Source: Bacteroidales bacterium (lineage in GTDB: Bacteria > Bacteroidota > Bacteroidia > Bacteroidales > UBA932). From it: 44,765 bases of DNA. The notes under the pieces were generated by a model. That model saw only the letters and a program-made list of their open reading frames with translations, made no database searches and had not been told where the DNA came from. Position numbers and translations under genes: made by a program. Shown here piece by piece: positions 5,780-37,071 of the stretch. Every line of letters begins with the position of its first letter. Position 1 is the first letter of the stretch. The stretch covers positions 1 through 44,765 of the forward strand of contig JAFZVQ010000085.1 in NCBI GenBank assembly GCA_017617715.1. Reading direction: 5' to 3'.

Positions 5780-8700
5780 ATGAAAAAATCATTCAAGGCG
5801 ATGTTGCTGTCCCTGGCAGCAATGTTTCTTGTCGTGTCCTCCTATGCGCAGGTCACGACTGCTTCCATGAGTGGTAAGGTCTCTGACACCGCAGGTCCCG
5901 TGGTCGGGGCCGCCGTGGTGGCAGTCCACCAGCCCACCGGTTCCCAGTATTACGCTGTGACCGACGCCGGCGGCCGTTACTACATCAACAACATTATGGC
6001 CGGCGGCCCTTACGTCGTCACGGTTTCCTGTCTCGGCTACACCGATTCCGTCTTCAAGGACATCCACGTGGCCCTTTCCGACAACTTCGTCATCAACGCA
6101 GACCTCAAGGAAGAGTCCCTCAGCCTGGACGCCGTGGTGGTCTCCGCTGAAGGCAACACCTCGAATATGCGTTCCGACCGCGCCGGAGCCCTCACCGCTT
6201 TGGATTCAAAGCAGATGATGAAGGTCCCCACCGTGACCCGAAGCATGAACGATATCCTCAAACAGACCCCCCAGGCATTCGTGTCCGGCACCAAGACCTT
6301 CATCGGAGGCGGTTCCTACCGTGATTCCTATGTGACCGTGGACGGTGCGGCGATGAACAACGCTTTCGGTATCGGCAGCAACCTGCCCGCCGGCGGAAGC
6401 CCCATCTCCCTGGACGCCCTCGACCAGATAGCCATAGCAATCACCCCGTTTGACGTGCGCCAGTCCGGCTTCACCGGCGGCGGTATCAACGCCGTGTCCA
6501 AGTCCGGTACCAACGAAGTCTACGCCACGGCCTACGGCTTCTTCCGCAACCAGGACATGCAGGGCTACCAGGTGGCTGACTACGACCCGATCAACAAGAC
6601 AGACAGCCGTTATATGATGTACGGCGCCTCCGTGGGCGGCCCCATCATCAAGAACAAGCTCTTCTTCTTCGTCAACGTCGAGGCCGACCGTTCCGTCAGC
6701 CCCGGCCCCACCGGCAACCTCTCCGAGCGCACCGTGGGCGCAGACGGCAAGCTCACCGACACCGGCAAGGTGTTCACCGACGGCAAGGACCGCGTGGCCT
6801 ATCCTTCCTACGTGGTCATGGACGCCCTGGCCGACTACCTGAATACCAACTACGGCTACGATCCCGGCGCCTACCTGGGCTACAATACCGAGACCCCTTC
6901 CCTGAAGATTCTCGCCCGCGTGGACTGGAACATCAACAAGAACCACAAGTTCAACGTGCGCTACAACATGGTGAACAGCAAGAACGTGGTCGCCCCTTCC
7001 ACCTCCACCACCGGATTCGGCAACTCGGGCTTCTCCACCACCAACTGCCAGTCCTGGTACGCCCAGTACTTCCAGAACGCCCGCTACTACCAGGAGCAGA
7101 ACTTCTCCTCCGTGGCGGCCGAACTCAACTCCCGCTTCCTTGACGGCAAGCTCGGCAATTCCCTCCGCGTGGCCTACTCCCACCAGTATGAGCCCCGCAG
7201 CGTGGACGGCGGCTACTTCCCGTTCGTCGACCTCGTGGTCAACGACGTCAACGGCGACGGCAAGTCCCACATCTACACCACCTTCGGCACGGAGGCCTTC
7301 TCCTACGGCAACCTCCGCGACGTGAGCACCGTCACCGCCACCGACGAGGTGACCCTGAACCTTGGCAAGCACAGCCTGCTCGGCGGCTTGTCCTTCGAGT
7401 ACGACAACACCAAGAACGGCTTCCAGCGCATGGGCGCAGGCGCCTACGTGTTCGACTTTGCCGACGAACAGGCCCTCTACGACGCCATCAAGGGCGGCAC
7501 CCTGTTTGCCAATCCCCAGCAGTTTGCCATCACCCACGGCAACAACGCCACTTTCTCCCAGGAATTCCCGCACTTCAACTTCGGCCAGCTGTCCTTCTAC
7601 CTGCAGGACAACTACAACGTGAGCGACAACTTCAAGCTTACCGCCGGCGTACGTCTCGAGGTGCCCTTCTACCCTTCGCTTGACTTCAACCGCAACACCC
7701 GCGTGGAAGAGGCGACCTTCGCTCCCACTCCCAGCAACCCCAGCGGCAAGTACAGCACGGTCGACACCCCCGCCACCAGGCTCAGCGTATCGCCCCGTCT
7801 GGGATTCAACTGGGACATCTTCGGCAACCGCAGGGTAGTGCTCCGCGGCGGCACCGGCGTGTTCGTGGGCCGTATCCCCTTCGTGTGGATCGTGGGCCAG
7901 TCGGGTGATGCCGGCGTGCTCCAGACCACCGTCACCAGGATTGGCGAAGGCATCCCGACCATCGGCAACGACCGCGACGCCATCCTCAAGCAGCTCTATC
8001 CCGACGGCTACAATGCAGTGGCTGCGGGCCGCAACCTGACTTCCATCACCCTGATGGATCCCCAGCTCAAGAACCCCACCACCTGGAAGAGCTCCCTCGC
8101 CCTGGACGTGAACCTGCCCGGCGACATCAAGGCTTCCGTGGAAGGAGTGCTTAAGGAAGACATCCACGTCGTGACCCTGACCAACATCGGTCTCCTGCCT
8201 CCGACCACCCTCACCAGCACCGGCACCGACGGCGTGTCCGCAAGGCCTTACTATGCCAACGGCCGCTACGACAGCCAGATCACCGACGCCTACCTCATCA
8301 ACAACGTGAGCGGGCTCGGCAAGGCCGGCGAGTACTATTCCGTGACCGCCAAGCTGGAAAAGAACAACTGGCACGGCCTCAGCGCCAACATCGCTTACAC
8401 CTACAGCCACGCCAAGGTCATTATCGACGGTATCGGCGACCAGCCCGGTTCCGCATGGAAGGGCATCGTGTCGCAGCGCGGCACCAACAATCCCGAGCTC
8501 GGCTATGCCAGCTACGTGATGCCGCACCGCATCATCGGCAACCTCAGCTACTCCGTGGACTATGCCAGGTTCTTCGGCACCACCGTGGCCGTTTCCTACT
8601 ACGGCGGTCCCACCGGAAGGGCCAACTGCGACTACGTCAATAACGTCTTCGCCGACGGCGCCTACAACTACAGCCTTATCGACATCCCTACCGCAGACCA

Positions 8701-9205
8701 GCTCAAGAACTGGACATTCAAGGATTACACCGACAAGGAAGGCAACGTGACCTATTCCGCCGACGCCCAGAAGGCCGACTTCGAGAAGTTCATCCAGCAG
8801 GATTCCTACCTGAGCCGGAACCGTGGCAAGGTTGCCGACCGCAACGGCCTCGTGTACCCCTGGGTCAACAAGTTCGACTTCAAGCTCAACCAGAATTTCT
8901 ACTTCTACACCGGCGCCTCAAAGCACCGCAACACCGTCCAGCTCGGGGTTGACGTCCTCAACATAGGCAACCTGTTCAACCCTTACTGGGGCAACGTCTG
9001 GAGCATCCCTTCAGGTGTAGGCGACGGATATGGCAACATCATTCCCGTCAACCTGACCAACCCCGCCGCGGTCTACACCGAGGGCGCAACTCCCGTGTTC
9101 CAGTTCCAGAAGAACGGTTCGAACATCCTCTCCGAGACCTATGCAAGGACCAAGAGCCTCTCTTCCACCTGGGAGATGATCTTCAGCCTCCGTTACATCT
9201 TCTAA
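5780..9205 (+). CDS. TonB-dependent receptor, Oar-like, with carboxypeptidase-regulatory-like domain
   Basis: A 1141-residue outer-membrane receptor. A signal peptide (1-23, ending SSYAQ) is followed by a carboxypeptidase-regulatory-like/CNA-B-type domain (about 25-110), a plug domain (about 120-235, with GGGSYRDSYVTVDGA and SGFTGGGINAVSKSGTN) and a long beta-barrel ending in an aromatic residue (FSLRYIF). The block MMYGASVGGPIIKNKLFFF is typical of Oar-like receptors rather than of SusC, and no SusD gene follows. It is the first gene of its unit, 13 nt before an OB-fold lipoprotein. Given the nucleases encoded in the next unit, I infer import of nucleic-acid fragments, but the substrate cannot be read from the receptor itself. 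Confidence 0.9.
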   Translation: MKKSFKAMLLSLAAMFLVVSSYAQVTTASMSGKVSDTAGPVVGAAVVAVHQPTGSQYYAVTDAGGRYYINNIMAGGPYVVTVSCLGYTDSVFKDIHVALSDNFVINADLKEESLSLDAVVVSAEGNTSNMRSDRAGALTALDSKQMMKVPTVTRSMNDILKQTPQAFVSGTKTFIGGGSYRDSYVTVDGAAMNNAFGIGSNLPAGGSPISLDALDQIAIAITPFDVRQSGFTGGGINAVSKSGTNEVYATAYGFFRNQDMQGYQVADYDPINKTDSRYMMYGASVGGPIIKNKLFFFVNVEADRSVSPGPTGNLSERTVGADGKLTDTGKVFTDGKDRVAYPSYVVMDALADYLNTNYGYDPGAYLGYNTETPSLKILARVDWNINKNHKFNVRYNMVNSKNVVAPSTSTTGFGNSGFSTTNCQSWYAQYFQNARYYQEQNFSSVAAELNSRFLDGKLGNSLRVAYSHQYEPRSVDGGYFPFVDLVVNDVNGDGKSHIYTTFGTEAFSYGNLRDVSTVTATDEVTLNLGKHSLLGGLSFEYDNTKNGFQRMGAGAYVFDFADEQALYDAIKGGTLFANPQQFAITHGNNATFSQEFPHFNFGQLSFYLQDNYNVSDNFKLTAGVRLEVPFYPSLDFNRNTRVEEATFAPTPSNPSGKYSTVDTPATRLSVSPRLGFNWDIFGNRRVVLRGGTGVFVGRIPFVWIVGQSGDAGVLQTTVTRIGEGIPTIGNDRDAILKQLYPDGYNAVAAGRNLTSITLMDPQLKNPTTWKSSLALDVNLPGDIKASVEGVLKEDIHVVTLTNIGLLPPTTLTSTGTDGVSARPYYANGRYDSQITDAYLINNVSGLGKAGEYYSVTAKLEKNNWHGLSANIAYTYSHAKVIIDGIGDQPGSAWKGIVSQRGTNNPELGYASYVMPHRIIGNLSYSVDYARFFGTTVAVSYYGGPTGRANCDYVNNVFADGAYNYSLIDIPTADQLKNWTFKDYTDKEGNVTYSADAQKADFEKFIQQDSYLSRNRGKVADRNGLVYPWVNKFDFKLNQNFYFYTGASKHRNTVQLGVDVLNIGNLFNPYWGNVWSIPSGVGDGYGNIIPVNLTNPAAVYTEGATPVFQFQKNGSNILSETYARTKSLSSTWEMIFSLRYIF

Positions 9206-9218
9206 CAGTTGAAAGAAT

Positions 9219-11102
9219 ATGAAACTCAATAAGATAATATTCGCAATCGCAGTGCCCGTGCTGGCCCTGCTCGCAGCCTGCCAGCCCGAAAGCGACGTGC
9301 TCTCGCAGATTTCCACCGACAAGGGCGTCTACGAAATCGGCGCCGCCGGAGGCGACATCACCGTGAAGCTCTTCTCCACCGAAGACTGGACTGCAAAAGT
9401 GGCTCCCGCCACGTCCCTGGATGAGGTCGACGGCATCACCGTCAGCCCCGCTTCCGGTTCCGCTTCCGACAAGGAGCAGACCGTGACCATCAAGGTCCCC
9501 AACAATGCCGGCTACAACCGCGCCGCCCTCGTCTCTTTCCTCGGAAGCAGGCTCAGCAGCGCCGTGACGGTGTCTCAGCCCGGAGCCGAAGGTGAAAGGG
9601 TGCTCAAGGTCACCTGCGCGGAATTCCTCGAGAAGTCCGTCGACGCCAGCGTGTTCTATGAAATCACCGGCACCGTGACCAAGATCACCGACGAGTACTA
9701 CAACGACTTCTGGATCAACGACGGCACCGTCGAAGGCGACGGCGTCTACACCTACGGCCTCTTCGAGTCCAAGGGCGCTTCCCGTATCAATTACTACATG
9801 CAGCAGATGGACATCCGCGAAGGCGATATCCTCACCATGCGTGCCACCAGGAGCGCCTACAACGGCCAGCCTCAGGCAGGCAGCGCCTACTACGTGAGCC
9901 ACGAGAAGTCCAAGACCCCGAGCATAGCCCTCGGCCTCGAGAAGTATGAAGCCGGTGCCACCGGCGAGACCTTCGAACTGCCCGTCACTTCCAACGTCGT
10001 GACCTGGACCCTCAGCGCCGACGTGGACTGGCTCAGCTTCGATCCCGCCACCGGCAACGCCTCCACGACCGTGAAGGTCACTGTGGCCGCAGGCCCTGAC
10101 GCCGAAGGTACTATTACCCTCGCAGCCGCTGGCCTCGAGTCCAAGACCTGCAAGGTGATACGTTCCGCGGTGCCCGTGCTGACCGTCAGCGAGATTCTCG
10201 GCCTCGAGAAGGGCGCCCTCCTCAGCACCAAGCCTTCGCTCGTAGTGGCCAAGACCACCAAGGGCTTCGTGATCTCAGACGGCACCAAGGCCGTGTATGT
10301 GTTCGACAACGGCGCCAATGCGGTGGCAATCGGCGACATGATCACCTTCAAGGGCTCCAAGACCGTATACAACGGTGTCCATGAGATAGAGAAGGTGAGC
10401 AACCTGGCCGTCGAGTCCAACGGCAATGCCGTCACATATCCCAACCCGAAGTATGTGGTGGACTATGCTGCCGAGTACACTGCCGAAGAGGCTGAGTTCG
10501 TCACCATCTGCGGCAAGCTCAAGGTGTCCGGCAACTATCTCAACGTCGAGCTTGAAGGCGTGGATTCTGCCTCCAAGATGGGCAGCATAGTCTATCCTGT
10601 GGACGACCTGAACGCCAAGAGCTTTGACGGCAAGGATATCATCATCAACGGCTACTTCAACGGCTGGTCCGGAGGCAATAAGTACCTCAACGTCATTGCT
10701 GTCTCCATCGCCGAATACACTCCCGGCGCCAAGGGCACCTACACCAATCCCTACAGGCCTTCCGAAATCGCTCCCATCCTCGGTGGCGGCACCAAGATAA
10801 GCGGCAATGTGTTCGTGACCGGAAAGGTGTCCAAGATAGCCAGCCAGTTCTCTTCGGGCTACGGCAACGCCCAGTTCTGGATTTCCGACGACGGCGCTTT
10901 CAAGAGCGATCCCAACCAGGATTTCGAGGCCTACAACGCGTGGTATCTCGGCAACAGGCGCTGGGTCGAAGGCGACCAGACCGTCTCCGAAGGTGACGTT
11001 GTGGTTCTCTACGGTGAGGTGACTTATTTCTCCAAGAACAGCGTCGCCGAAACCAACGGCAAGAGAGCCTATGTCCACACCATCAACGGTCAGTGGAAAT
11101 AA
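9219..11102 (+). CDS. BACON/OB-fold lipoprotein, putative nucleic-acid-binding surface protein
   Basis: A 627-residue lipoprotein (ALLAAC, lipidated Cys 21). In order: a BACON-like beta-sandwich (about 30-122, ending TVSQPG); an OB-fold-like region of DUF5689/DUF6359 type (about 130-225, FYEITGTVTKITDEYYNDFWIND); a second BACON-like domain (about 232-320, WTLSADVDWLSFDPATG); a second OB-like region (about 325-505, with GFVISDGTKAVYVF, GDMITFKGSKTVY and FVTICGKL); and a third (about 520-627, VFVTGKVSKIA, NAQFWISDDG). The repeated pattern GKV-x-I...FWI-DDG...GD-V-YGEV is the OB fold of nucleic-acid-binding domains, though such domains are not proved to bind nucleic acid here. It lies between the receptor and a strong terminator, so the two form a receptor-lipoprotein pair like SusC/SusD but unrelated in fold. 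Confidence 0.82.
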   Translation: MKLNKIIFAIAVPVLALLAACQPESDVLSQISTDKGVYEIGAAGGDITVKLFSTEDWTAKVAPATSLDEVDGITVSPASGSASDKEQTVTIKVPNNAGYNRAALVSFLGSRLSSAVTVSQPGAEGERVLKVTCAEFLEKSVDASVFYEITGTVTKITDEYYNDFWINDGTVEGDGVYTYGLFESKGASRINYYMQQMDIREGDILTMRATRSAYNGQPQAGSAYYVSHEKSKTPSIALGLEKYEAGATGETFELPVTSNVVTWTLSADVDWLSFDPATGNASTTVKVTVAAGPDAEGTITLAAAGLESKTCKVIRSAVPVLTVSEILGLEKGALLSTKPSLVVAKTTKGFVISDGTKAVYVFDNGANAVAIGDMITFKGSKTVYNGVHEIEKVSNLAVESNGNAVTYPNPKYVVDYAAEYTAEEAEFVTICGKLKVSGNYLNVELEGVDSASKMGSIVYPVDDLNAKSFDGKDIIINGYFNGWSGGNKYLNVIAVSIAEYTPGAKGTYTNPYRPSEIAPILGGGTKISGNVFVTGKVSKIASQFSSGYGNAQFWISDDGAFKSDPNQDFEAYNAWYLGNRRWVEGDQTVSEGDVVVLYGEVTYFSKNSVAETNGKRAYVHTINGQWK

Positions 11103-11123
11103 TATGTAATTCTTTCTGAATAT

Positions 11124-11160
11124 CCGCCCCGACGGCTCCAGCCGCCGGGGCGGTTTTTTT
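11124..11160 (+). terminator. strong rho-independent terminator
   Basis: A 13-bp GC-rich stem (11124-11136 with 11141-11153, one mismatch), loop TCCA and seven T residues. It lies 22 nt after the lipoprotein stop and separates the first receptor unit from the nuclease unit. Confidence 0.95.
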
Positions 11161-11171
11161 ATGCTGCGGTA

Positions 11172-11202
11172 TTGGAGTTTCGGCAAAAATAAATTACCTT
11201 TG
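11172..11202 (+). promoter_or_regulatory. promoter of the nuclease/second receptor unit
   Basis: TTG at 11172-11174 and TACCTTTG at 11195-11202, 20 nt apart, match the Bacteroidota consensus. The start would be near 11208, with a leader of about 40 nt. Confidence 0.75.
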
Positions 11203-11246
11203 AAAATTACAACAGCTGACTAATATAATTCTAATAACGCGCTATT

Positions 11247-13703
11247 ATGAAATTCAAAGTTTTACTTGCTACTTTCCTGGCTGCGGCGCTCTGTCTTGCC
11301 GCCTGCGAGGAACAGGAGGAGCTTGGCACTCCCAAGATTTCCGTCGACCCGACTGAGCTGAGCTTCACCCAGGGAGAGGGCTCACAGGAGGTGGCTCTCA
11401 CCAGCACCCGCCCCTGGTATATCAAAAGCCAGCCGGACTGGGTGGGCCTGAGCGTCTCCGAAGGGAAGGCTTCCACCAAGCCCCAGGCCATTTCCGTGTC
11501 CGTGGATGCCAACAAGGGCTATAACAGGACGGGCGAGCTCGTGCTCACCAACGGCTTCGGCGATGCCACCGTGCTGATCAAGCAGGCCGGTGCGTCCGGC
11601 GAGATCAAGACCGGCTCCGGCACCAAGGAAGATCCCTACACCGTGGCCGGAGTCGTCGCCTATGTGCAGTCCCTCGGCAAGGATGTGGCCAGCCCCGAAA
11701 AGGTCTACGTCAAGGGTATCGTGTCCAGCATCGCCAGCGACGCTGACACTTACACCGGCAGCGGCACCTTCGGCAACGCCACCTTTAAGATGTCCGACGA
11801 CGGCACCACCAACGGCGACCAGTTCTATTGCTACCGCATCCTCTACCTCGGCAACCGCAAGTTCAAAAGCGGCGAAGCCGACATAAAGGTGGGCAGCAAC
11901 GTGGTGATCCGCGGCAAGGTGGTCAACTACAGGGGCGACACCCCCGAGACTTCCCAGGGCACCGCATTCCTCTTCTCCCTTGAAGGCAAGGACGAAGGCG
12001 ACGGCGAAGTGAATGCCGGCACTCCTTCCGGAAAGGGCACCCAGGAAGATCCGTTCAACGTGGCGGCCGCCTACGATGCCGTGAAGAACCTGAAATGGAC
12101 CGACAGCAAAACCTACGAAAAGGTGGGCCCGTACTATGTGAAGGGCAAGATTTCCTCGATCGACCAGGACTACACCTACAATATCTCCGAAGGCCGCACC
12201 TACGGCAACGCCCGCTTCAACATTTCCGAAGACGGCTCCGAGACCGCTGCCCAGTTCATCCTCTACAACCTCAATTACCTTGGCGACACCAAGTTCACCT
12301 CCGGCAAGACCGACATCAAGAAGGGTGACGACGTGGTCATCTACGCCGAACTGATGAACTATCAGAACACCAAGCCCGAGAATGCCGGCGGATATCTCTA
12401 CTCCCTGAACGGCGACACCGGCAGCACGACTCCCTCCACCAGCGTCACCGGCACAATCACCGAGATTATCGCCGCTGCGGACGAGACCGGCGTGGCGGTT
12501 CCTGAAGCCATCGTGGCCGCCCTTTCTTCCCAGGGCTTCATCGCCACCGACGGCAAGAGCAACGTGTATGTGTACCTGAAGGCTGAGCCGACGGTGAAGA
12601 TAGGCGACAAGGTGAAGATAGAGGGCACCAAGACCACCTACTTTGGCCTGCCCGAAATCACCGGCCCCAAGGTTTCCACCCTTTCAAGCGGCAACGAAGT
12701 GCCCCGCACCGAGCTCAAGGACATCACCGCTTCCCTCGACGCCTACAACGCCAGCGTGGCTGAATTCATATGCGTGACCGGCAAGCTCGTGCAGGACGGC
12801 AGCTACTACAATGTCGAAGTCGGCGGAGCCGCCCGCAAGGCCACTCCGTCCAGCCTGCACTCTTCCATCGATCCCAAGGCTCTTGTGGGCCAGCAGGTCA
12901 CCATGACAGGCTACTTCAACACCATCCATTCCACCAAGAACCTGGTCCAGATCGTAGTGACCTCCATCACCCCTGCCGATCCCAACGCCAAGTACTGCAG
13001 CGTCAGCCCCACTTCCATTCCCGTGAAGGCAGATGCCGGTTCAGCCAGCTTCAAGATCACTGCCAACGCCGCCTGGACAGCCACATCCGACAACGCCGAC
13101 TTCGCGGTCTCTCCCGCCTCCGGCTCGGCCGACGCCACCGTGACCGTGACATTCCCCGCCAACCAGACTGAAGCCGCCAAGGTGGCAAATATCAAGGTGT
13201 CCTGCCCCGACGCCGGCGTTGAAGCTACGGTAGTGATCACCCAGTCGAAGCCTTCCAGCGGCGAGGCCCTCACGATATCCATCGACTTCACCAAGGAAAT
13301 GGCCGAACTGCCCCAGGCCAGCGCCAACGGCATCACCGACGGCACCTACACCTGGTCCGGCCAGACCTTCATCCTCCACGCGGCCGACAAGTTCTACCAG
13401 GCCAAGAGCGGTGATAACTTCTACCTTCTTATCGGCAAAACGAATTCCTATATCCAGCTTCCCGCAATAGAGGGCAAGTCGCTCGTGAAGGTCCAGTTCC
13501 TGACCGGCGCAGGCGCCTCCACGGCAGTCATCGAAGACATCGCGAAGGCCGACGGCACTCGCCTGAACATCAACACGAGCGCCCTCGACAAGGGTAAGGA
13601 ATACTCATGGGAAGTTCCCGGCGAGCCCGGCGCGGCATACCGTATCATGGTTTGCAACGACAAGAACGCCCAGTTCCAGAACCTCACGGTCGTTTACGAA
13701 TAG
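11247..13703 (+). CDS. multi-domain BACON/DUF6359-like OB-fold lipoprotein
   Basis: An 818-residue lipoprotein (CLAAC, Cys 20) followed by the acidic stretch EEQEE, compatible with surface export in Bacteroidota. Domains by eye: BACON-like (about 28-115); two DUF6359-type OB repeats, each opening with a GTKEDPYTVA or GTQEDPFNVA block and containing YVKGIVSSI or YVKGKISSI plus NAxFxxSxDG (about 125-250 and 258-390); a third OB-like region (about 395-570); a BACON-like domain (about 578-670, WTATSDNADFAVSPASG); and a C-terminal beta-sandwich (about 675-818) of the kind that often binds ligands. It starts the unit that also holds both nucleases, 12 nt before the endonuclease gene. Binding of nucleic acid is inferred from the fold and neighbours. 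Confidence 0.82.
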   Translation: MKFKVLLATFLAAALCLAACEEQEELGTPKISVDPTELSFTQGEGSQEVALTSTRPWYIKSQPDWVGLSVSEGKASTKPQAISVSVDANKGYNRTGELVLTNGFGDATVLIKQAGASGEIKTGSGTKEDPYTVAGVVAYVQSLGKDVASPEKVYVKGIVSSIASDADTYTGSGTFGNATFKMSDDGTTNGDQFYCYRILYLGNRKFKSGEADIKVGSNVVIRGKVVNYRGDTPETSQGTAFLFSLEGKDEGDGEVNAGTPSGKGTQEDPFNVAAAYDAVKNLKWTDSKTYEKVGPYYVKGKISSIDQDYTYNISEGRTYGNARFNISEDGSETAAQFILYNLNYLGDTKFTSGKTDIKKGDDVVIYAELMNYQNTKPENAGGYLYSLNGDTGSTTPSTSVTGTITEIIAAADETGVAVPEAIVAALSSQGFIATDGKSNVYVYLKAEPTVKIGDKVKIEGTKTTYFGLPEITGPKVSTLSSGNEVPRTELKDITASLDAYNASVAEFICVTGKLVQDGSYYNVEVGGAARKATPSSLHSSIDPKALVGQQVTMTGYFNTIHSTKNLVQIVVTSITPADPNAKYCSVSPTSIPVKADAGSASFKITANAAWTATSDNADFAVSPASGSADATVTVTFPANQTEAAKVANIKVSCPDAGVEATVVITQSKPSSGEALTISIDFTKEMAELPQASANGITDGTYTWSGQTFILHAADKFYQAKSGDNFYLLIGKTNSYIQLPAIEGKSLVKVQFLTGAGASTAVIEDIAKADGTRLNINTSALDKGKEYSWEVPGEPGAAYRIMVCNDKNAQFQNLTVVYE

Positions 13704-13715
13704 TCCTGTCCTTTT

Positions 13716-14906
13716 ATGAGACGGATTCACATTATTCCGGCGCTGCTCTCCCTGCTCTTCCTCGCTTTCGCATGCGATCCCACTGAAGAGCCGGGAGTGC
13801 AGGCGGGAATAGTTCCCCGCAGCGACGTGATCGAGGCTGACGGCGGAAGCATCTTCATGACCGTGACAGCCTCCGGAGACTGGACTATCATGCTGGAGTA
13901 TTCCGGCGGAAGCTCCGGCTGGGCCACGGCCGACCCGCCGTCCGGCACCGGGTCGCGCGCTGACGTCCGTCTTCGCTACGATGCCAACGACGACACCGAA
14001 GCCCGCAGCGTGACCGTGATCCTCAAGGCCGGCGCCGGCCCGTCCCCCCGCGCCACCGTGACCCAGAAGGGCAAAACTCCTGAAGATACGCCCCCGGCCA
14101 CTTCGGGCAATATTTCCGGCAAGGACACGGCAGAGCCGCTATGGCTTGAGCTGCCCGCCACCAAGAAGGGCGACGGCCTCACCTTCTATGTCCACGACAT
14201 GGACGGCGGCGAGTACATCGACGCCAAGACCAGCGGCGTGCGCAACTGGTCGTTTTACTGGGATTCCGAGGAGCACCTTTCCCTGTGGGTGGCCTATCCG
14301 ATGAACAACAGCCTGAAAGGCACCGGCAAGCGTACGGACGAATGGGGCTTGGATCCGCTTATCCCGGAAGACAAGCAGCCCGACCTCCGCAACAGCTCCT
14401 ACGGCGGCGGATGGACCCGAGGGCACCAGATTCCTTCCGCCGACCGCCTCAGCTACAACGCCAACGTGTCCACGTTCTACAGCACCAACATGACTCCGCA
14501 GGAATATTATTTCAACGGCGGCATCTGGGCTGACCTGGAGAACAGGGTGCGTGCCTATGCGGCCGCATCGGATACGCTTTATGTGGTGACCGGCTGCCAG
14601 TACGCCGCCTCCACCGCCTACAGTGGTTACTATTCCGGTTTCGCGGTGAAGATACCCACCCACTATTTCAAGGCTTTGCTATTCAAGGGCGTATCCACAT
14701 ACGCGCCGCGAGGCTATATGGCAGCAGGCTTCCTCCTGCCGCACGATACCCAGATCTCCAGTGGCAACTACCTCGACTACATCCTTTCGATAGACGAGCT
14801 GGAGAAGGCGACGGGCATAGATTTCTTCCCCAACTTAAAGAAGGTCCTCAGCGCTTCCGCAGCGGATGAGATAGAGGCTGAGCAACCTTCGTCCTGGTGG
14901 AAATAA
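13716..14906 (+). CDS. DNA/RNA non-specific endonuclease lipoprotein (NUC1/NucA family)
   Basis: A 396-residue lipoprotein (FLAFAC, Cys 20). A BACON-like domain (about 28-118) is joined by a proline-rich linker to a beta-beta-alpha-metal endonuclease domain (about 140-385). The catalytic block reads GGGWTRGHQIPSADR, with the general-base His at 237; the family usually has DRGH, and here Asp is replaced by Thr. The downstream TNMTPQ...FNGGIWADLEN block supplies the metal-binding Asn and Glu expected for the family. It would cut DNA and RNA outside the cytoplasm, in the periplasm or at the surface. It lies between an OB-fold lipoprotein (12 nt) and another nuclease (18 nt), strong evidence for a nucleic-acid degrading operon. 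Confidence 0.9.
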   Translation: MRRIHIIPALLSLLFLAFACDPTEEPGVQAGIVPRSDVIEADGGSIFMTVTASGDWTIMLEYSGGSSGWATADPPSGTGSRADVRLRYDANDDTEARSVTVILKAGAGPSPRATVTQKGKTPEDTPPATSGNISGKDTAEPLWLELPATKKGDGLTFYVHDMDGGEYIDAKTSGVRNWSFYWDSEEHLSLWVAYPMNNSLKGTGKRTDEWGLDPLIPEDKQPDLRNSSYGGGWTRGHQIPSADRLSYNANVSTFYSTNMTPQEYYFNGGIWADLENRVRAYAAASDTLYVVTGCQYAASTAYSGYYSGFAVKIPTHYFKALLFKGVSTYAPRGYMAAGFLLPHDTQISSGNYLDYILSIDELEKATGIDFFPNLKKVLSASAADEIEAEQPSSWWK

Positions 14907-14924
14907 CACGATAACACTGATTCA

Positions 14925-16031
14925 ATGATGAAAAGATACTTCACTGCGCTGTGCCTCATCCTGTTGGTCGTGATGACGGGATGCGGCCCGGCCAAACAGG
15001 CGGCATCAACCCCTGCGACCGCCTACAAGTCTTCCTATGTCATAGGGTTCTACAATCTTGAGAACCTCTTCGACACCTACCACGACGAGGGCAAGAACGA
15101 CTATGAGTACCTGCCCGACGGCGGCAACCAGTGGACTGAGGCCAAGTACACCAAGAAACTCGCCAACATGGCCCGTGTGATCGCGGCCATGAAGGAAGAC
15201 AACGGCGTATGGCATGCCGTGCTGGGTGTGTCCGAGGTCGAAAACAGGCATGTCCTCGAAGACCTCGTGGCCGAGCCCGCCATCGCTTCCGCAGGCTTCC
15301 AGATCGTCCACTACGACGGTCCCGACCGCCGCGGCGTGGACGTGGGCCTGCTCTACCGTCCAGAGGTTTTTAAGCTCATCACCTCCGAGAGCATTCCATT
15401 CACCTTCACTCCCTCCCGCATAGACTGGAGCCAGTGGACCCAGGAGGAGATGGACAATTTCAAGACCCGTGACGTGCTGATGTGCCGCGGCACTATCGAC
15501 GACGAGATGTTCGCCATCTTCGTGACCCACCTCCCGTCCCGTCTGGGCGGCAAGGGCGCCGACCTGCGTCCGAGGGGCGCTGAAATTATCTACCAGCGCG
15601 CCATGGAGCTGCAGAAGGAGTTCCCCGGCATCAAGATAGTGGTGATGGGGGATATGAACGACAATCCCAACGACGTGAGCATGACCGAGTTCCTCCGCGG
15701 CAAGGAATTTCGGGAAGAAGTGACCGACGAAGATTTCTTCGATCCCTTCCTGAGCATGATCAAGGCCGGTTATGCTTCCCTCTACTATCAGGGCGGCAAC
15801 AATATCTTCGACATAGTGATGGTCAACAACTCCCTGGCCAACGCGGCTCCCGGCAGCTTCGAGATTGCTCCCCTGGTGAAGAAGATCTACTACGGCCGTA
15901 TCTTCAACAAGCCTTTCATGACCAACCAGAGCGGTCAGTACAAGGGCACTCCGCTCCGCACCTTCTCCGGCGGTGCTTTCGTGGGCGGCTACTCCGACCA
16001 CTATCCCACGTATATCGTAATTCGGAAATAA
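14925..16031 (+). CDS. endonuclease/exonuclease/phosphatase family lipoprotein
   Basis: A 368-residue lipoprotein (VVMTGC, Cys 20; an ATG 3 nt later is an equal start). The whole mature part is one EEP-fold enzyme with the four expected active-site blocks: NLENLFDT (N44), SEVEN (E104), GDMNDNP (D243, N245) and SDHYP (D358, H359). EEP enzymes of this branch hydrolyse phosphodiester or phosphate-ester bonds: nucleases, or phosphatases acting on nucleotides or lipids. Next to a NUC1 nuclease and two TonB receptors, an extracytoplasmic nuclease is most likely. The stop is 1 nt before the second receptor's start, so the two are tightly coupled. Confidence 0.9.
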   Translation: MMKRYFTALCLILLVVMTGCGPAKQAASTPATAYKSSYVIGFYNLENLFDTYHDEGKNDYEYLPDGGNQWTEAKYTKKLANMARVIAAMKEDNGVWHAVLGVSEVENRHVLEDLVAEPAIASAGFQIVHYDGPDRRGVDVGLLYRPEVFKLITSESIPFTFTPSRIDWSQWTQEEMDNFKTRDVLMCRGTIDDEMFAIFVTHLPSRLGGKGADLRPRGAEIIYQRAMELQKEFPGIKIVVMGDMNDNPNDVSMTEFLRGKEFREEVTDEDFFDPFLSMIKAGYASLYYQGGNNIFDIVMVNNSLANAAPGSFEIAPLVKKIYYGRIFNKPFMTNQSGQYKGTPLRTFSGGAFVGGYSDHYPTYIVIRK

Positions 16032-16032
16032 T

Positions 16033-18906
16033 ATGAGACGTTTACTTCTGGCATTGGCTGCCATCGCCTTCTCGCTCACCCTCTCCGCCCAGGAACCCAC
16101 AGGCGGCGTGAAGGGTACGATAGTCAACCGCAACGGCCGCCAGCCCATAGAAAAGGCCCGCCTGGTGCTCCTCAAGGGAGCCGAGCAGGTGGCCGAGACC
16201 GAGTCGGCCGAAGACGGCACATTTGAGATCCAGGGCCTGCCCGACGGCATGTACACCCTGTCCATCGTGGCCCCCGACTTCCTTGACAACCTGGTGCAGG
16301 TGACTGTCAACGACGGTTATATGAAGAACATGTTCAACCTGTCGATGACCTCCGTGAACCGCGTCACCGAGCTGGACGACGACTCTTTCGCCGCCTTCGA
16401 CATGGACGACTCCGGCTACAACGACAATCCCACCATCCTCTTCGGCAGCAACGACGTGTTCAACAACATCGCCGGTTTCAATTTCTCCGCAGTGCGCTTC
16501 CGCGCCAGGGGTTATTCCTCCGAGTCGCAGGACGTGTACCTGGCCGGCGTGAAACTGAATGACGCCGTGACAGGCTACAGCCCGTTCTCCCTGTGGAGCG
16601 GCCTCAACGAAGCCATGCGTTCGAAAGAATCGGTCAGCGGCTCCGAGGTGTCCGACTACGGATTCGGCGGCTACAACGGCCTCACGAACATATTCGGAAA
16701 CGCCGCCTCGGTGCGCAAGGGCCTCCGCGGCAGCGTGATGACCAACAGCCAGCTCTACCGCCTCCGCGTCATGGGCTCATATGCCACCGGCCTGATGGAC
16801 AACGGCTGGGCCTTCGCCGCCAACGTGTCCGCCCGCCTCGGCGGCAACGACTGGATCGACGGTGTGTACTACCGTTCGTTCGCCTACTACCTGGCGGCCG
16901 ACAAGGTGTTCAACAACGTCCACAAGCTGAGCTTCGCGTTTTTCGCCACTCCCGGCGAGCGCGGCGCCCAGAACGCCTCCACGCAGGAGGTCTACGACCT
17001 GATGGGGGACAACATGTACAATTCCAACTGGGGCTACCAGAACGGCCGCGTCCGCAACGCCCGCGTGCGCAAGACGCATGAGCCCGTGACGTTCCTGAAG
17101 TACGACTTCACCCCGTCCGATGTGTTCGAGGCGTCCGCCACCGTGCTCTACCGCTTCGGCAAGAACGGCTACACCGCCCTCGACTGGTACGACGCCCAGG
17201 ATCCCCGTCCGGACTACTACCGCAACCTGCCCAGCTACTTCCATGACTCCAACTCCGACATGAACCGCAACAACCCCGTCAAGTGGGCCTGGGCCAACGA
17301 GGTCTGGAGCAACGCCAGTTACTATCCCGAGCTGACGCACATCAACTGGGACCGCCTCTACAACGTAAACCGCAACCAGGCGGACGGCAGGGCCAAGTAC
17401 ATCCAGGAGGAGCGCCACGTGGACCAGAACGACCTCAACCTTGCCGCCAGCTTCAAGTGGCGCGCAGCAGAGTTCGTGACGGTGACCGGCGGCCTCAGCG
17501 GCAGGATCAACCGCACCGAGTACTACAAGGTGGTGGCCGACCTGCTGGGCGGCGAGTACTTCCTGGATATCGACAACTTCGCCGACCGCGATTTCGCATC
17601 CCAGCCCTGGAAGGTGCAGAACGACCTTAATTACTACCTCGCCAACGGCACGGCCCGCAAGCTCAAGAAGGGCGATAAATACGGCTACGACTATCTTGCC
17701 CAGGTGCGCAGCGCAGGCGGCTGGGTGAACGGCAAGTTCGTGTTCGGCAACCTGAGCGCCAACGTGGGCGGCCGCCTCGGCTACGAGGGCTTCTGGCGCC
17801 ACGGCCTTATGCGCAAGGGCCTTTTCCCCGGCTACCCCAGCAGCCAGGAAATGGCGAAGCAGTGGGAAGCGGCGGGAATCGAGCCGTCCGATGAGAGCTC
17901 CTCATGGGCCTCCAGGAAGGCTGAGTTCCTCACCTATGCCGGCAAGCTCGGCCTGACCTACGTGATAGGCGGTACCCAGCGCGTCTATGCCAACGTGGGC
18001 TATTTCAACGACGCTCCCAAGTTCAACCAGGTGTTCCTCTCCCCGAGGACCCGCAACACCATGGTCGACGACGTGGAGCCGGTGAAGACCTTCTCCAGCG
18101 ACATCAACTGGCAGTATTCCGGCGGCGGCATCAACGTCCGCGCCACGGCTTACTACACCACCATCAAGGACCAGTCCAAGGTGATGAGCGCCTACGACGA
18201 CCTCCAGAATGCCTTCTCCAACTTCGCCATTACCGGCATCGACCAGCGCAACATGGGTATTGAGCTCGGCTTCAAGATGCCCACCTATTTCGTGGAGAAT
18301 CTTTCCGTGCAGGGTGTCCTTGCGCTCGGTAGCTATGAGTACACTTCCAATCCCGTGATGACGCAGACCGTCGACAACAGCGCCGAAGTGGTGATGCAGG
18401 ACGTGCTCGTGCCTTACTGGAGGAGCACGACCCTCGAGGACGGCACGGTGCAGAAGCATTACATTCCTTCCACGCCCCAGACTGCCGTATCCCTCGGTCT
18501 TTCCTACAACCGCAACTACTGGTTCATCGACATGGACGTCGAGTATTTCGGCCGCTCCTACCTCGACATGAATCCTCTCTACCGCACCGATTACGCAACT
18601 GCCGGCCCCGACAACAATATCACCGCCCAGGAAATCGCCTACATGACTTCCCAGGAAATGTTCAAGCCGGCATGGCTCGTCAACGCTTCCGTGGGCAAGT
18701 CCTGGTTCATCAAGCGCAAATACCAGCTCGGCTTCTCCCTGAACGCGAAGAACCTGCTCAACAACACCAATGTAAAGACCGGCGGTTACGAACAGACCCG
18801 TCTGGTGGACAACACCGTGTCCAAGGAGCGCTTCTACCGTTTCGATCCGAAGTACTTCTATATGTCGGGATTCAATTACATGTTGAACGTCTATTTCAGA
18901 TTCTAG
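16033..18906 (+). CDS. TonB-dependent receptor with carboxypeptidase-regulatory-like domain
   Basis: A 957-residue outer-membrane receptor. Signal peptide 1-19 (ending TLSAQ), carboxypeptidase-regulatory-like domain at about 24-100 (GGVKGTIVNRNGRQPIEKA), plug at about 125-235 (RFRARGYSSESQDVYLAGV and DYGFGGYNGLTNIFG), then a barrel ending in MLNVYFRF. It differs clearly in sequence from the larger receptor at 5780-9205, so this is not a recent duplication. It sits between the EEP enzyme (1 nt) and an OB-fold lipoprotein (3 nt). I infer uptake of nuclease products. It is not a SusC, since no SusD is nearby. Confidence 0.9.
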   Translation: MRRLLLALAAIAFSLTLSAQEPTGGVKGTIVNRNGRQPIEKARLVLLKGAEQVAETESAEDGTFEIQGLPDGMYTLSIVAPDFLDNLVQVTVNDGYMKNMFNLSMTSVNRVTELDDDSFAAFDMDDSGYNDNPTILFGSNDVFNNIAGFNFSAVRFRARGYSSESQDVYLAGVKLNDAVTGYSPFSLWSGLNEAMRSKESVSGSEVSDYGFGGYNGLTNIFGNAASVRKGLRGSVMTNSQLYRLRVMGSYATGLMDNGWAFAANVSARLGGNDWIDGVYYRSFAYYLAADKVFNNVHKLSFAFFATPGERGAQNASTQEVYDLMGDNMYNSNWGYQNGRVRNARVRKTHEPVTFLKYDFTPSDVFEASATVLYRFGKNGYTALDWYDAQDPRPDYYRNLPSYFHDSNSDMNRNNPVKWAWANEVWSNASYYPELTHINWDRLYNVNRNQADGRAKYIQEERHVDQNDLNLAASFKWRAAEFVTVTGGLSGRINRTEYYKVVADLLGGEYFLDIDNFADRDFASQPWKVQNDLNYYLANGTARKLKKGDKYGYDYLAQVRSAGGWVNGKFVFGNLSANVGGRLGYEGFWRHGLMRKGLFPGYPSSQEMAKQWEAAGIEPSDESSSWASRKAEFLTYAGKLGLTYVIGGTQRVYANVGYFNDAPKFNQVFLSPRTRNTMVDDVEPVKTFSSDINWQYSGGGINVRATAYYTTIKDQSKVMSAYDDLQNAFSNFAITGIDQRNMGIELGFKMPTYFVENLSVQGVLALGSYEYTSNPVMTQTVDNSAEVVMQDVLVPYWRSTTLEDGTVQKHYIPSTPQTAVSLGLSYNRNYWFIDMDVEYFGRSYLDMNPLYRTDYATAGPDNNITAQEIAYMTSQEMFKPAWLVNASVGKSWFIKRKYQLGFSLNAKNLLNNTNVKTGGYEQTRLVDNTVSKERFYRFDPKYFYMSGFNYMLNVYFRF

Positions 18907-18909
18907 CTT

Positions 18910-20073
18910 ATGAAAAAGTTAATTATCGCACTTTCAGTCGCCCTTGTGGCGCTTTCTTCCTGCCGGAGTCTGAAGGAAGAATGGGATCCGGTGTTCACTT
19001 TCGGCGCCAACGAGCCGGCCGCTGAGAAACTGTTCTCCGAAGCCGACCTCAAGGATCTCGGATTCCCGGGCACTTTCACGTCCATCAAGGATCTCAAGGC
19101 GATGTACAAGGACGGCGGCGTGGCCATCAAGACCAACACCTGGATTAAAGGACAGGTGATTTCAAGCGACGTCAACGGCAACATCTACCGTGAGCTCTAC
19201 ATCCAGGACGAGACCGGCGGCATCGACGTGAAGATAGGCAAGTCTTCCCTCTACAGCGAGTTCACCCTCGGCCAGTGGGTGTATGTCAATTGCAGCAACC
19301 TTACGCTGGGCGCCTACAACGGCATGCCCCAGCTTGGCCTCGAAGCCGACAGCACTTCCACCAACGAATATGAGACGTCCTACATAGACGTCCAGGCCAT
19401 CATCAACGAGCACGTGTTCAAAGGCGCCAAGGCCGATCCCGTTGCTCCCGTGGCAGTGGACGAGGCCCAGCTCAAGGCCGCCATCAGCGCCGGCTACACC
19501 GGAGAGCTCTGGGGCAAGCTGGTCACGATCAAAGGTCTCTTGTATGGGAAGAAGATTTTCGCCCTCGTCTATCCCAACCCCAACATGCCCCACAAGAGCG
19601 GCAATCCCGAGAACCGCGTGTTCCTTTCCGATTCCGGCACCTGGGGCATCGACACATGGGCGCTCACCAAGAACACCTACATCGACATCCTGCTGAACAC
19701 CAACGCCTGGGATTCAGCGCAGGTGGGAAGCGGCAACAAACGTTACTGCACCATCACCAAGAGCCCCAACGACTGTAAGGGCGACATGCCGGAGAGCGTG
19801 CTCAAGACCTTCGGCAGCGACGCAGGCATGCCCTATAAGCAGATTATGATCAAGTATGCCACCGCCAACTACGTGTCCCACTATTTCCGCATCGGAAAGA
19901 CAGACGTGCAGGTGCGTACCAGCGGATATGCCCGTTTCGCCGACCAGAAGCTCGACTCCCGCCTGCGCGACGGCAGCAGCACCTGCGACATCACCGGCAT
20001 ACTTTCCATCTACAACGGCGCCGCCCAGTTCACCCTGGTGGACGATCCTTCGGTGTCCGTAACCGTACATTGA
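18910..20073 (+). CDS. DUF5689-type OB-fold lipoprotein
   Basis: A 387-residue lipoprotein (VALSSC, Cys 18). Two OB-like regions are visible. The first (about 60-135) has TWIKGQVISSDVNGNIYRELYIQDETGGIDVKI, the hallmark of the DUF5689/OB-fold nucleic-acid-binding-like family; the second (about 165-260) has LVTIKGLLYGKK. A third beta-rich section closes the protein (CDITGILSIYNGAAQFTL). Together with the preceding receptor it repeats the receptor-OB lipoprotein pairing seen at 5780-11102. It follows the receptor by 3 nt. Specific binding of DNA or RNA is an inference. Confidence 0.82.
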   Translation: MKKLIIALSVALVALSSCRSLKEEWDPVFTFGANEPAAEKLFSEADLKDLGFPGTFTSIKDLKAMYKDGGVAIKTNTWIKGQVISSDVNGNIYRELYIQDETGGIDVKIGKSSLYSEFTLGQWVYVNCSNLTLGAYNGMPQLGLEADSTSTNEYETSYIDVQAIINEHVFKGAKADPVAPVAVDEAQLKAAISAGYTGELWGKLVTIKGLLYGKKIFALVYPNPNMPHKSGNPENRVFLSDSGTWGIDTWALTKNTYIDILLNTNAWDSAQVGSGNKRYCTITKSPNDCKGDMPESVLKTFGSDAGMPYKQIMIKYATANYVSHYFRIGKTDVQVRTSGYARFADQKLDSRLRDGSSTCDITGILSIYNGAAQFTLVDDPSVSVTVH

Positions 20074-20078
20074 CGTTT

Positions 20079-22076
20079 ATGAAAAAAGTATTTGTTATAA
20101 TTGCCGCCGGACTGATGACCATCGCCTGCAACCGCGAAAATATTTTCCTCCAGGAATGGGACACTCCGTACGGCATCCCTCCCTTCGACAAGATAAGCGT
20201 GTCCGACTACATGCCCGCCATCAAGGCAGGCATAGAGCAGCATGACGCCGAAATCCAGGCAATAATCGATAATGCCGAGGCTCCTACGTTCGAGAACACC
20301 ATTGCCGCCATGGACCGCAGCGGCAGGCTGCTTGCCAAAGTCACGAACGTGCTGCTCAACATTATCGAGTCCGACTACAGCGACGCCCTGAACAAGGTGG
20401 TCGAGGAAGCTACCCCCATGATAGCCGCCCACAGCGACGACATAATGATGAATCCAGGCCTCTTCGCCCGCGTGAAGGCTGTCTATGAGGCCGACCAGAG
20501 CGGCCTGGACCGCGAGGAACAGATGCTCCTGAAGAAGTTCTACGACGGATTCATCCGCAACGGCATAGGCCTGGACGAGGCTTCGCAGGCACGTATGAGG
20601 GAGATCAATTCGGAACTCTCCACGCTTGCGCTTGATTTCGCCAACAACCTGCTCGCCCAGTCGAACGCTTTCAAGGAGCAGACAGGCTTCTCGGTGGCTT
20701 CCTACTACGACAAAATGGCCTCCATAGCCGACAGGGCCGAGCGCGAGAAGGTGTTCCGCGCCTATTCCATGCGCGGGCACAACGGCGACGCCAACGACAA
20801 CCGTGAGCTGGTGCTCAGGACCATGGCCCTCCGCATCGAGAAGGCTAAGATGCTCGGTTTCGAGAATCCCGCAGCGTTCATCATAAGCGACAAGATGGCC
20901 GGGACTCCTGCCGCCGTGGATGCTTTCCTCGGCAGCATCATGGATGCCGCCATGCGCCGCGCCAAGGAGGAAGTGGCTGACATGCAGAAGCTTATGGATG
21001 AGGATGTGGCCGCAGGGCTGCTGCCTGCCGGTTCCCGTATCGAGCCTTGGGACTATCTCTACTACGCCGAGAAGGTGCGCAAGGCCCGCTACGACCTCGA
21101 CGAGGCCGAAGTGTCGGAGTACTTCAAGATGGAGAATGTGCGCGCCGGCGTATTCGCCACCGCATCAAAGCTCTACGGCATCAGCTTCGAGAAGCTGGAG
21201 GACGTGCCCGTGTACAATCCGGAGTGCGAGACCTTCAAGGTGGTCGATTCCGACGGCTCCCTGATAGGCATCATAATCACCGATTATTATCCCCGTGATT
21301 CCAAGCGCGGAGGCGCGTGGATGACCAATTTCGTGGAGCAGCGTGAAGGCGTGCGCCCCGTCATCGTGAACGTGGGCAACTTCAACAAGCCGTCCGCCGA
21401 CAAGCCGGCCCTCCTTACGATCGACCAGGTGGAGACTATGTTCCACGAGTTCGGTCATGCCCTCCACGGCCTGCTCAGCCAGTGCCGCTACCAGAGTGTG
21501 AGCGGCACCTCCGTGAAGCGTGATTTCGTGGAATTCCTTTCCCAGGTCAATGAGAACTGGGCTTTCGAGCCCGAAGTGCTCGCCACCTACGCCTTCCACT
21601 ACCAGACCGGTGAGGTCATTCCCGACGCTCTGGTGGCCAAAGTGCGTGCCGCCGCCAACTTCAACCAGGGATTCACCACCGGCGAGCTTTGCGCCGCCAG
21701 CATCCTGGACATGAAGTGGCATGAGCTGGGCAGCATCGAGGGTGTGGACGTGGATTCTTTTGAGCAGAAAGCCTGCGAGGAGATGGGCCTCGTCAAGGAG
21801 ATTATTCCGCGCTACCGCAGCACCTATTTCAACCATATCTTCGGCTCCAGCGGCTATAGCGCAGGCTATTACAGCTACCTTTGGGCCGAGGTGCTCGACA
21901 AGGATGCCTTCGAACTCTTCAAGCAGAAGGGTATATTCGACAAGGAGACTGCCATGAGCCTGCGCCGCAACGTCCTCGAGATGGGCGGCAGCGAGGAACC
22001 CATGGAGCTCTACCGCCGCTTCCGCGGCCAGGACCCCGATCCCGGAGCCCTTCTCCGTGCCCGCGGCCTGAACTAA
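20079..22076 (+). CDS. M3 family metallopeptidase lipoprotein (dipeptidyl carboxypeptidase-like)
   Basis: A 665-residue zinc peptidase of the oligopeptidase A/Dcp family. The zinc motif HEFGH is at H456-E457-H460 (MFHEFGHALHGLLS); a Glu in FVEFLSQVNENW is the expected third ligand. Unlike cytoplasmic Dcp it has a lipoprotein signal (LMTIAC, Cys 17), so it probably works in the periplasm, removing dipeptides from oligopeptides. I start at the ATG at 20079 rather than an earlier TTG because the signal peptide begins there (MKKVFVII). It follows the DUF5689 lipoprotein by 5 nt and is the first gene of the run that does not look nucleic-acid related. Confidence 0.9.
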   Translation: MKKVFVIIAAGLMTIACNRENIFLQEWDTPYGIPPFDKISVSDYMPAIKAGIEQHDAEIQAIIDNAEAPTFENTIAAMDRSGRLLAKVTNVLLNIIESDYSDALNKVVEEATPMIAAHSDDIMMNPGLFARVKAVYEADQSGLDREEQMLLKKFYDGFIRNGIGLDEASQARMREINSELSTLALDFANNLLAQSNAFKEQTGFSVASYYDKMASIADRAEREKVFRAYSMRGHNGDANDNRELVLRTMALRIEKAKMLGFENPAAFIISDKMAGTPAAVDAFLGSIMDAAMRRAKEEVADMQKLMDEDVAAGLLPAGSRIEPWDYLYYAEKVRKARYDLDEAEVSEYFKMENVRAGVFATASKLYGISFEKLEDVPVYNPECETFKVVDSDGSLIGIIITDYYPRDSKRGGAWMTNFVEQREGVRPVIVNVGNFNKPSADKPALLTIDQVETMFHEFGHALHGLLSQCRYQSVSGTSVKRDFVEFLSQVNENWAFEPEVLATYAFHYQTGEVIPDALVAKVRAAANFNQGFTTGELCAASILDMKWHELGSIEGVDVDSFEQKACEEMGLVKEIIPRYRSTYFNHIFGSSGYSAGYYSYLWAEVLDKDAFELFKQKGIFDKETAMSLRRNVLEMGGSEEPMELYRRFRGQDPDPGALLRARGLN

Positions 22077-37047: not shown

Positions 37048-37063
37048 CTGGAACAAAAATAAC

Positions 37064-37071
37064 CAAATATA
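37064..37071 (-). promoter_or_regulatory. -7 box of pbpC
   Basis: TATATTTG on the minus strand ends on the first base of the alpha-2-macroglobulin ATG. The start would be near 37059, about 10 nt before the pbpC ATG. It faces the opposite box, so the 5' ends overlap. Confidence 0.6.

Follow-up and report, generated by a model that had tools for sequence, protein, structure and literature searches.

The stretch of DNA considered here, which we call the window, is one whole contig (JAFZVQ010000085.1, 44,765 nucleotides, C47 in our numbering) of a 2.3-Mb draft genome of a Bacteroidales bacterium (GCA_017617715.1) in 86 contigs, 76.6% complete, and our subject is a run of genes at positions 5780 to 20073. 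A preliminary description had listed seven adjacent genes on the plus strand, and all seven open reading frames are indeed there. The first, R1 (P0001, 5780..9205, 1141 residues), is an outer-membrane receptor with a CarboxypepD_reg domain and an OMP_b-brl_4 barrel (Pfam, E 1.6e-53), which we take to be Oar-like. It is followed by two predicted lipoproteins, OB1 (P0002, 9219..11102, 627 residues), with BACON repeats and an OB-like stretch (residues 355-441) similar to the leader of ExeM/NucH nucleases, and OB2 (P0003, 11247..13703, 818 residues), with BACON domains and weak OB-like stretches. Then come two more predicted lipoproteins: NUC1 (P0004, 13716..14906), in which a BACON domain is joined to a DNA/RNA non-specific endonuclease, and EEP (P0005, 14925..16031), of the endonuclease/exonuclease/phosphatase fold. 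R2 (P0006, 16033..18906, 957 residues) is a divergent TonB-type receptor, and D (P0007, 18910..20073, 387 residues) a predicted lipoprotein with the OB-type domain DUF5689. The gaps between these genes are, in order, 13, 144, 12, 18, 1 and 3 bases, and a lipobox-like cysteine was found by pattern match in P0002, P0003, P0004, P0005 and P0007.

We argue that this run is an outer-membrane DNA-acquisition system, one that would capture DNA at the cell surface, cut it and bring it in by TonB-type import, and we put the probability of this reading at roughly 0.75. What carries it is the gene content, the intact catalytic residues of both nucleases, the orthology of R2 with a receptor required for natural transformation in Riemerella anatipestifer, the likeness of D and EEP to the neighbors of that receptor, the conserved linkage of these genes, and a search of related genomes in which no secretin was found. 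The locus has two parts: a core of EEP, R2 and D, and an extension of R1, two BACON/OB lipoproteins (OB1 and OB2) and NUC1 that is present in most sampled members of the genus.

Both nucleases are recognized by Pfam far above threshold. NUC1 scores 126.7 bits against Endonuclease_NS (E 1.3e-36, cut-off 23) and aligns with the solved nucleases 2o3b and 1zm8 and with mitochondrial EXOG through the RGH and N...E region, and its RGH...N...N...E set (R235-G236-H237, N258, N267 and E275) is invariant across 18 aligned sequences. EEP scores 292.1 bits against Exo_endo_phos_3 (E 5.6e-87, cut-off 27), with N44, E46, E104, D139, H202, D243, N245, D296 and S357-D358-H359 invariant across 25 aligned sequences. 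The claim that both active sites are intact therefore stands, and both proteins are, by these residues, predicted to be active. A sequence search found no full-length match to EEP among solved structures, and one of viral contigs gave four distant matches. An apparent OB-NUC1 fusion in some genus members was rejected, as Pfam gives those proteins only BACON and Endonuclease_NS, and our OB profile includes BACON; one NUC1-type protein of the genus also has an F5/8 C match, below the cut-off.

Three OB-fold lipoproteins had been proposed, and three are likely, with a firm assignment for D only. P0007 matches DUF5689 at E 6.8e-43 and PF01336 only at E 0.018; within the aligned D family, which counts P0007 and its Riemerella counterpart among its 26 members, DUF5689 is found in all 26 and PF01336 in seven. 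P0002 and P0003 are BACON proteins by Pfam, match the ExeM/NucH leader region weakly (E 0.0011 and 0.01, respectively), and reach PF01336 at E 0.11 (P0003) or not at all (P0002). Their wider family is more informative: 12 of 20 aligned members (OB1 and OB2 belong to the 20) match PF01336 at E ≤ 0.05, the best at 4.1e-25, and seven of the 20 match ExeM/NucH, so that relatives contribute more than P0002 and P0003 themselves to the probable OB assignment of OB1 and OB2. A sequence search found no full-length match to D among solved structures. When 14 control genomes were searched for DUF5689, matches over the cut-off turned up in Bacillus subtilis and Bacteroides ihuae; the former is, we suspect, the OB-bearing nuclease YhcR. 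D, OB1 and OB2 may be exposed at the surface and may bind DNA.

What, then, does R2 do? By Pfam P0006 has an N-terminal CarboxypepD_reg domain (E 7.6e-10), and by eye a signal peptide and a C-terminal aromatic residue; a sequence search of solved structures gave no full-length match. The most telling comparison is with R. anatipestifer, in which a screen found RA0C_RS04915, an outer-membrane protein with CarboxypepD_reg, and RA0C_RS04920, a DUF5689 protein, to be essential for natural transformation, and in which markerless deletion of either gene left cells that could not be transformed (PMC8459023, section 18 for the deletions; here and below we draw on parts of that paper). Using a published primer, we located the comEC locus in strain CCUG25054 (not ATCC 11845) and read 19.5 kb. 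The genes run recA, dinB, sdhB, sdhA, cyt b, comEC, frames of 145 and 542 residues, EEP (divergent), R2 and DUF5689, where comEC, EEP and DUF5689 were named by Pfam and recA, dinB, sdhB, sdhA and cyt b by eye. The genes number eleven, as do the tags counted by fives from RS04870 up to RS04920, and recA and comEC fall at the tag positions given in the parts of PMC8459023 used here. From gene order and domains we infer that the Riemerella receptor is RA0C_RS04915, its DUF5689 neighbor RA0C_RS04920 and its EEP RA0C_RS04910.

P0006 finds this receptor as its best match in the Riemerella genome (2.3e-87 over residues 37-957; the next is 6.5e-16), and the two align pairwise over nearly their whole length at 29% identity (E 9e-103). 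In reverse, the Riemerella receptor finds P0006, in two pieces, as its sole match in the window's genome. A tree of 99 receptors, for which one of two weak matches served as the root, places the Riemerella and window proteins in one group of 94 (support 0.903), outside which lie three R2 paralogues (support 0.999) and the two weak matches. R2 is, in other words, the reciprocal best match and orthologue of the Riemerella transformation receptor, nearly at full length. EEP and its counterpart also match pairwise, at E 1e-53. One could suppose that the counterparts of R2 and D matter only indirectly for transformation, for instance in envelope assembly or in the display of another DNA binder, and the DNA transport drawn in Riemerella is by its authors' own statement speculation (PMC8459023, in the parts used here). 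Such an account leaves the recurring nuclease neighbors described below unexplained, and we think it improbable.

The same arrangement is found well beyond Riemerella. R2 is present at E 3e-79 or better in 29 of 149 genomes of the class (next best 1.4e-24) and, with the threshold set at E 1e-50, in 99 of 197 genomes of the order, the window counted in both. Our linkage sample consisted of 74 R2 loci from beyond the genus and Riemerella: 28 strong class matches besides the window, one weak one (L123), and from the order 26 drawn by rank and 19 chosen by hand across E-values, these being a sample of the 99 order positives. Within loci, family names come from profiles built on our matches except where Pfam is stated. 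D lies directly downstream of R2 on the same strand in 71 of the 73 loci with room for it, and EEP lies within 4 kb of R2 in 54 of 73 (45 upstream and divergent, three upstream on the same strand, six elsewhere), with flanks of 1.5 kb or less in eight of the 19 misses. L123 was later placed with paralogues, and excluding it the counts are 71 of 72 for D and 54 of 72 for EEP. Within the genus, where 21 genomes were looked at (22 loci, window included), R2 is at the locus in 18; D follows it in 17 of these, EEP precedes it in the same orientation in all 18, and NUC1 lies within 8 kb in 17. These genus loci were chosen for having an EEP match, and genomes G002, G010, G018, G021 and G024, with no close EEP match, were left out. 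The arrangement is conserved far beyond chance, and the co-occurrence in Bacteroidota for which the preliminary description had proposed a search is plainly there. The authors of the Riemerella screen had called homologues of the transformation genes widespread in the Bacteroidetes phylum, yet reported one of RS04915 only in Flavobacteriaceae (PMC8459023, in the parts used here); the wider spread of R2 seen here was thus partly anticipated.

A few loci depart from this pattern. In G001, G008 and G015, EEP adjoins a peptidase gene with no R2-D between them, and G019 has a 542-residue R2 frame without D; both statements concern the locus only, and R2 elsewhere in these genomes was not searched. 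R1 and NUC1 are retained in G008, in G019 and, on a separate contig, in G015, and the G001 contig ends before the position of R1. These loci (L090-L094) are naturally occurring cases in which the R1 module and the R2 module come apart. Among the R2 relatives there is also a paralogous group outside the main tree group (L161 10620-14687, L123 and L216), and in L161 and L216 the paralogue is followed by a gene matching the DUF5689 profile. In one genome (G203, L156 6030-8750) a single in-frame TAA interrupts the R2 frame. Searches of viral contigs with R2 confirmed no relative.

If the R2-D pair handles nucleic acid, then nucleases might be expected in its company, and they are. For 44 R2 loci outside the genus and Riemerella, 4 kb or more of sequence is available on each side; 35 of them have EEP within 4 kb, five have Endonuclease_NS and seven Endonuclease_1 within 6 kb, and 36 have at least one of these three families. 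Aureibacter tunicatorum has R2-D-D-Endonuclease_1-EEP-EEP (the last EEP by annotation), and Prevotella sp. oral taxon 299 has R2-D-OB and then Endonuclease_NS. Flammeovirga kamogawensis has EEP-EEP-R2-DUF5689/DUF6359 followed by a single protein in which DUF5689 is fused to Endonuclease_1 (L213 11666-13858, on p1), close to the R2-type receptor. In Bacteroides finegoldii a fimbrillin with Endonuclease_NS, a fimbrillin-like gene, R2, D and EEP form one run; the 27-kb record that holds it (L214) is labeled "plasmid 46" and may be a chromosomal piece. It is difficult to see why unrelated nuclease families and a DUF5689-nuclease fusion should gather around one receptor pair if the substrate were anything other than nucleic acid. 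Nuclease lipoproteins at the surface are common and BACON domains are regarded as adhesive, so one might imagine that the nucleases act only extracellularly, on the DNA of biofilms or of host neutrophil traps, and that the receptors import iron, vitamins or something else. We find little to recommend this, and give it lower odds than an indirect role in transformation: the linkage of R2-D recurs with unrelated nucleases and with the fusion, and the counterparts of R2-D have a transformation phenotype (PMC8459023, in the parts used here).

Since what the Riemerella mutants lose is transformation, a DNA phenotype, DNA is the most probable substrate, and RNA a less likely one. The preliminary description had spoken of capture, cutting and import of DNA or RNA; the Riemerella trio and the recurring nucleases support this, and it can now be sharpened to DNA. 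Could the locus instead be a variant polysaccharide utilization locus, its substrate another phosphodiester polymer or a glycan? BACON domains would fit, as would the DUF5689 proteins that stand beside SusD genes elsewhere in this genome. Among the seven proteins, though, Pfam gives no match to SusD at E ≤ 1, in line with the earlier statement that none is present, and none to carbohydrate-active enzymes (glycosidase or lyase), and the recurring partners are Endonuclease_NS, Endonuclease_1 and EEP nucleases. We regard this as the least credible of the explanations considered.

Several observations speak against a DNA-acquisition system, and they should be set out together. The mature forms of P0002-P0005 and P0007 are acidic (isoelectric points of 4.75-5.36), which is unexpected for DNA binders. 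Pfam finds a Plug domain in seven of 22 members of the R2 family and a barrel in two of 22, and neither in P0006. D and its Riemerella counterpart align over 158 residues only (31% identity, E 2e-11), and when the profile of the OB1/OB2 family is compared with that of D, the match is weak (43% probability). Eight of the 44 wide-flank loci have no member of the three nuclease families. The genome of the window encodes two more distant DUF5689 and BACON proteins beside SusD genes (L124 8197-17706 on C60; L125 8486-12892 on C78), the one in L124 next to a TonB-type receptor as well; because of these paralogues DUF5689 also appears to serve other receptor systems, and we have rejected it, taken alone, as a marker of DNA. 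In Riemerella the EEP gene lacks a lipobox by pattern match. RS04910 is not reported as needed for transformation in the parts of PMC8459023 used here, the main text mentioning it once, as an unaffected upstream gene. Finally, Riemerella mutants in tonBA and tonBB do transform less, but the dependence on TonB may be indirect, as the authors tie tonBB to iron (PMC8383284, seen in part).

With these points weighed, we still prefer a DNA-acquisition system, and the following sequence of events is how it might work. Extracellular DNA would be bound by OB1, OB2 and D from their anchorage in the outer membrane, and the lipoprotein nucleases NUC1 and EEP would nick or shorten it. R2, together with D, would then pass DNA or its fragments through its barrel to the periplasm, a step that in this locus would be driven by TonB. 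R1, with OB1 and OB2, may act as a further receptor, particular to the genus, that perhaps takes up the cut products, and DNA in the periplasm would be degraded as food or handed to an inner-membrane competence channel. The passage of DNA through the barrel and its TonB drive are proposals.

The preliminary description had counted two TonB receptors, and both exist, but they are not equivalent: R2 belongs to the conserved core, and we propose R1 as a second receptor particular to the genus. Twelve other genus loci extend far enough (10 kb or more) for R1 to be seen, and in 11 of them it is encoded upstream in the same orientation. We considered R1 for the core and rejected it, since none of 29 R1 loci outside the genus has D, EEP or NUC1 within flanks of 1.5 kb. 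Counting against this exclusion, a frame matching the R2 profile stands beside R1 in four of those 29 loci (L195, L203, L204 and L206, E 3e-44 to 2e-81, the frames being cut off by the locus ends), so that R1-type and R2-type receptors may pair outside the genus too.

A harder question is what the imported DNA is for. Use for phosphorus, nucleobases or carbon had been suggested; the nucleic acid substrate survives from that suggestion, nutrition stands as a candidate purpose, and transformation is a candidate no less concrete. We consider R2-D an outer-membrane DNA-uptake unit whose cargo may go to food or to transformation. Of 25 genomes comprising the window's own and those of its relatives, 24 have ComEC (the window's among them), as do 191 of 197 genomes of the order, and the six order genomes without detectable ComEC all carry R2. 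Given 99 of 197, six of six has p of about 0.015, by hand arithmetic uncorrected for relatedness; two of the six share a genus, and some may be assembly gaps, their completeness being 87-99%. We had thought to cite co-occurrence with ComEC in support of transformation and have dropped it, as these six genomes point the opposite way. The ComEC of the window's genome (L154 4028-5083, minus strand, on C64) has 351 residues, with a Competence domain and no DUF4131 match by Pfam; that of Riemerella has 586 and a DUF4131 domain. Frames of 351-406 residues are found in 15 of 16 genus genomes, with two pieces in the remaining one, compared with 461-712 residues in the eight other families with a match; a few short ones are found elsewhere in the order too (for example, G245, with 370). 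The short ComEC of the genus may reflect a lineage-wide shortening or decay.

These facts bear on two narrower versions of DNA acquisition, whose odds overlap with those of the broader reading. In one, the locus is a machine that serves natural transformation and nothing else: R2-D brings in long DNA on behalf of ComEC, and the nucleases do no more than trim it, much as the pneumococcal entry nuclease EndA does. The ComEC genes of 24 of 25 genomes would suit such a machine, as would the secretin search, which gave none in these 25 genomes (the window's assembly, at 76.6% complete, included) and was positive in six of 14 control genomes. So would a protein of the window's genome with at least two helix-hairpin-helix repeats and a likely N-terminal membrane anchor (L217 1078-2004, minus strand, on C52), a candidate counterpart, similar in kind, of the transformation gene RA0C_RS02645. 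A further point for the machine is the need for the counterparts of R2 and D in Riemerella; on the other side, Flavobacterium johnsoniae reportedly has the full set of homologues, yet it could not be transformed in the conditions used (PMC8459023, its discussion for the latter). R2 without ComEC and the short ComEC of the genus tell against the idea, and a pair of nucleases next to the importer would be liable to degrade the donor DNA. We judge a machine for transformation alone to be unlikely.

In the other version the locus is purely nutritional, taking up oligonucleotides or nucleotides after digestion at the surface, and transformation in Riemerella borrows the pore. Three unrelated nuclease families beside R2-D and the presence of R2 without detectable ComEC are in its favor, and Lutibacter, also of the Bacteroidota, took up carbon from DNA in marine sediment microcosms (PMC8289736, of which we draw on parts). 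Against this version, a Pfam scan of 17 proteins from the window turned up nothing recognizable as a nucleotidase, a nucleoside transporter or a phosphate-uptake protein. The scan did show a Ham1-type NTP pyrophosphatase and an EamA-type transporter, both apparently housekeeping proteins. The strict need for the counterparts of R2 and D in Riemerella transformation (PMC8459023, in the parts used here) also sits badly with nutrition alone, which we hold to be possible, although we lean away from it. The operon in the window, with two lipoprotein nucleases and a second receptor, does seem to tilt toward utilization. A bolder proposal is that R2-D is a TonB-energized DNA importer, widespread in Bacteroidota, that needs no pilus or secretin and serves nutrition and transformation alike, and that the lineage of the window built from it a complete DNA-utilization locus by way of a second receptor and two lipoprotein nucleases; for this whole proposal we consider the balance even.

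The same-strand run is not closed at 20073. An M3 (Dcp-type) peptidase gene (20070..22076, plus strand) overlaps D by 4 bases, although an ATG 9 bases further in is a possible alternative start; it lies near the operon in many genus members and may be co-transcribed with the seven genes, and we have treated it as a flanking gene. Between 20070 and 34314 peptidase-type genes (M3, M28, S41 and U32) are scattered amid housekeeping genes, which include gpmI-type and RNase R-type proteins, both named by eye. At 34786-41642 a bifunctional transglycosylase/transpeptidase with BiPBP_C (minus strand) adjoins a bacterial alpha-2-macroglobulin (plus strand), a familiar pairing.

How do Bacteroidota without a type IV pilus secretin move DNA across the outer membrane? 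This locus bears on the question: an order-wide conserved linkage ties the Riemerella machinery to nucleases and names its partners. It also suggests that feeding on DNA and exchanging genes may share one pore, with consequences for DNA turnover and horizontal gene flow in microbial communities.

The closest known system is that of Riemerella, RS04915-RS04920 with RS04910, which has the reciprocal best match of R2, D behind it and EEP next door, and which its discoverers called unique while describing their own model as speculative (PMC8459023, in the parts used here). It differs in that EEP is divergent and lacks a lipobox, and in that the 19.5 kb we read contain no match to the NUC1, R1 or OB profiles. 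With SusC/SusD polysaccharide utilization loci the window shares a receptor, lipoproteins and enzymes in one operon, with nucleases in place of SusD and carbohydrate-active enzymes. Candidatus Izemoplasmatales have no outer membrane, and a TonB-type receptor would be unexpected in them. Their DNA-degradation loci likewise group several extracellular nucleases with processing and transport genes, an organization that was, to the knowledge of the authors, undescribed in other microorganisms (PMC8289736, in the parts used here). Uptake by type IV pilus and secretin offers, by analogy, the same step of DNA across the outer membrane, for which we propose the barrel of a receptor here, given a secretin count of 0 in 25 genomes. 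The ExeM/NucH nucleases, finally, carry an OB-type leader near the nuclease, and the OB1/OB2 family matches the ExeM model; in the window the OB part and the nuclease are separate proteins.

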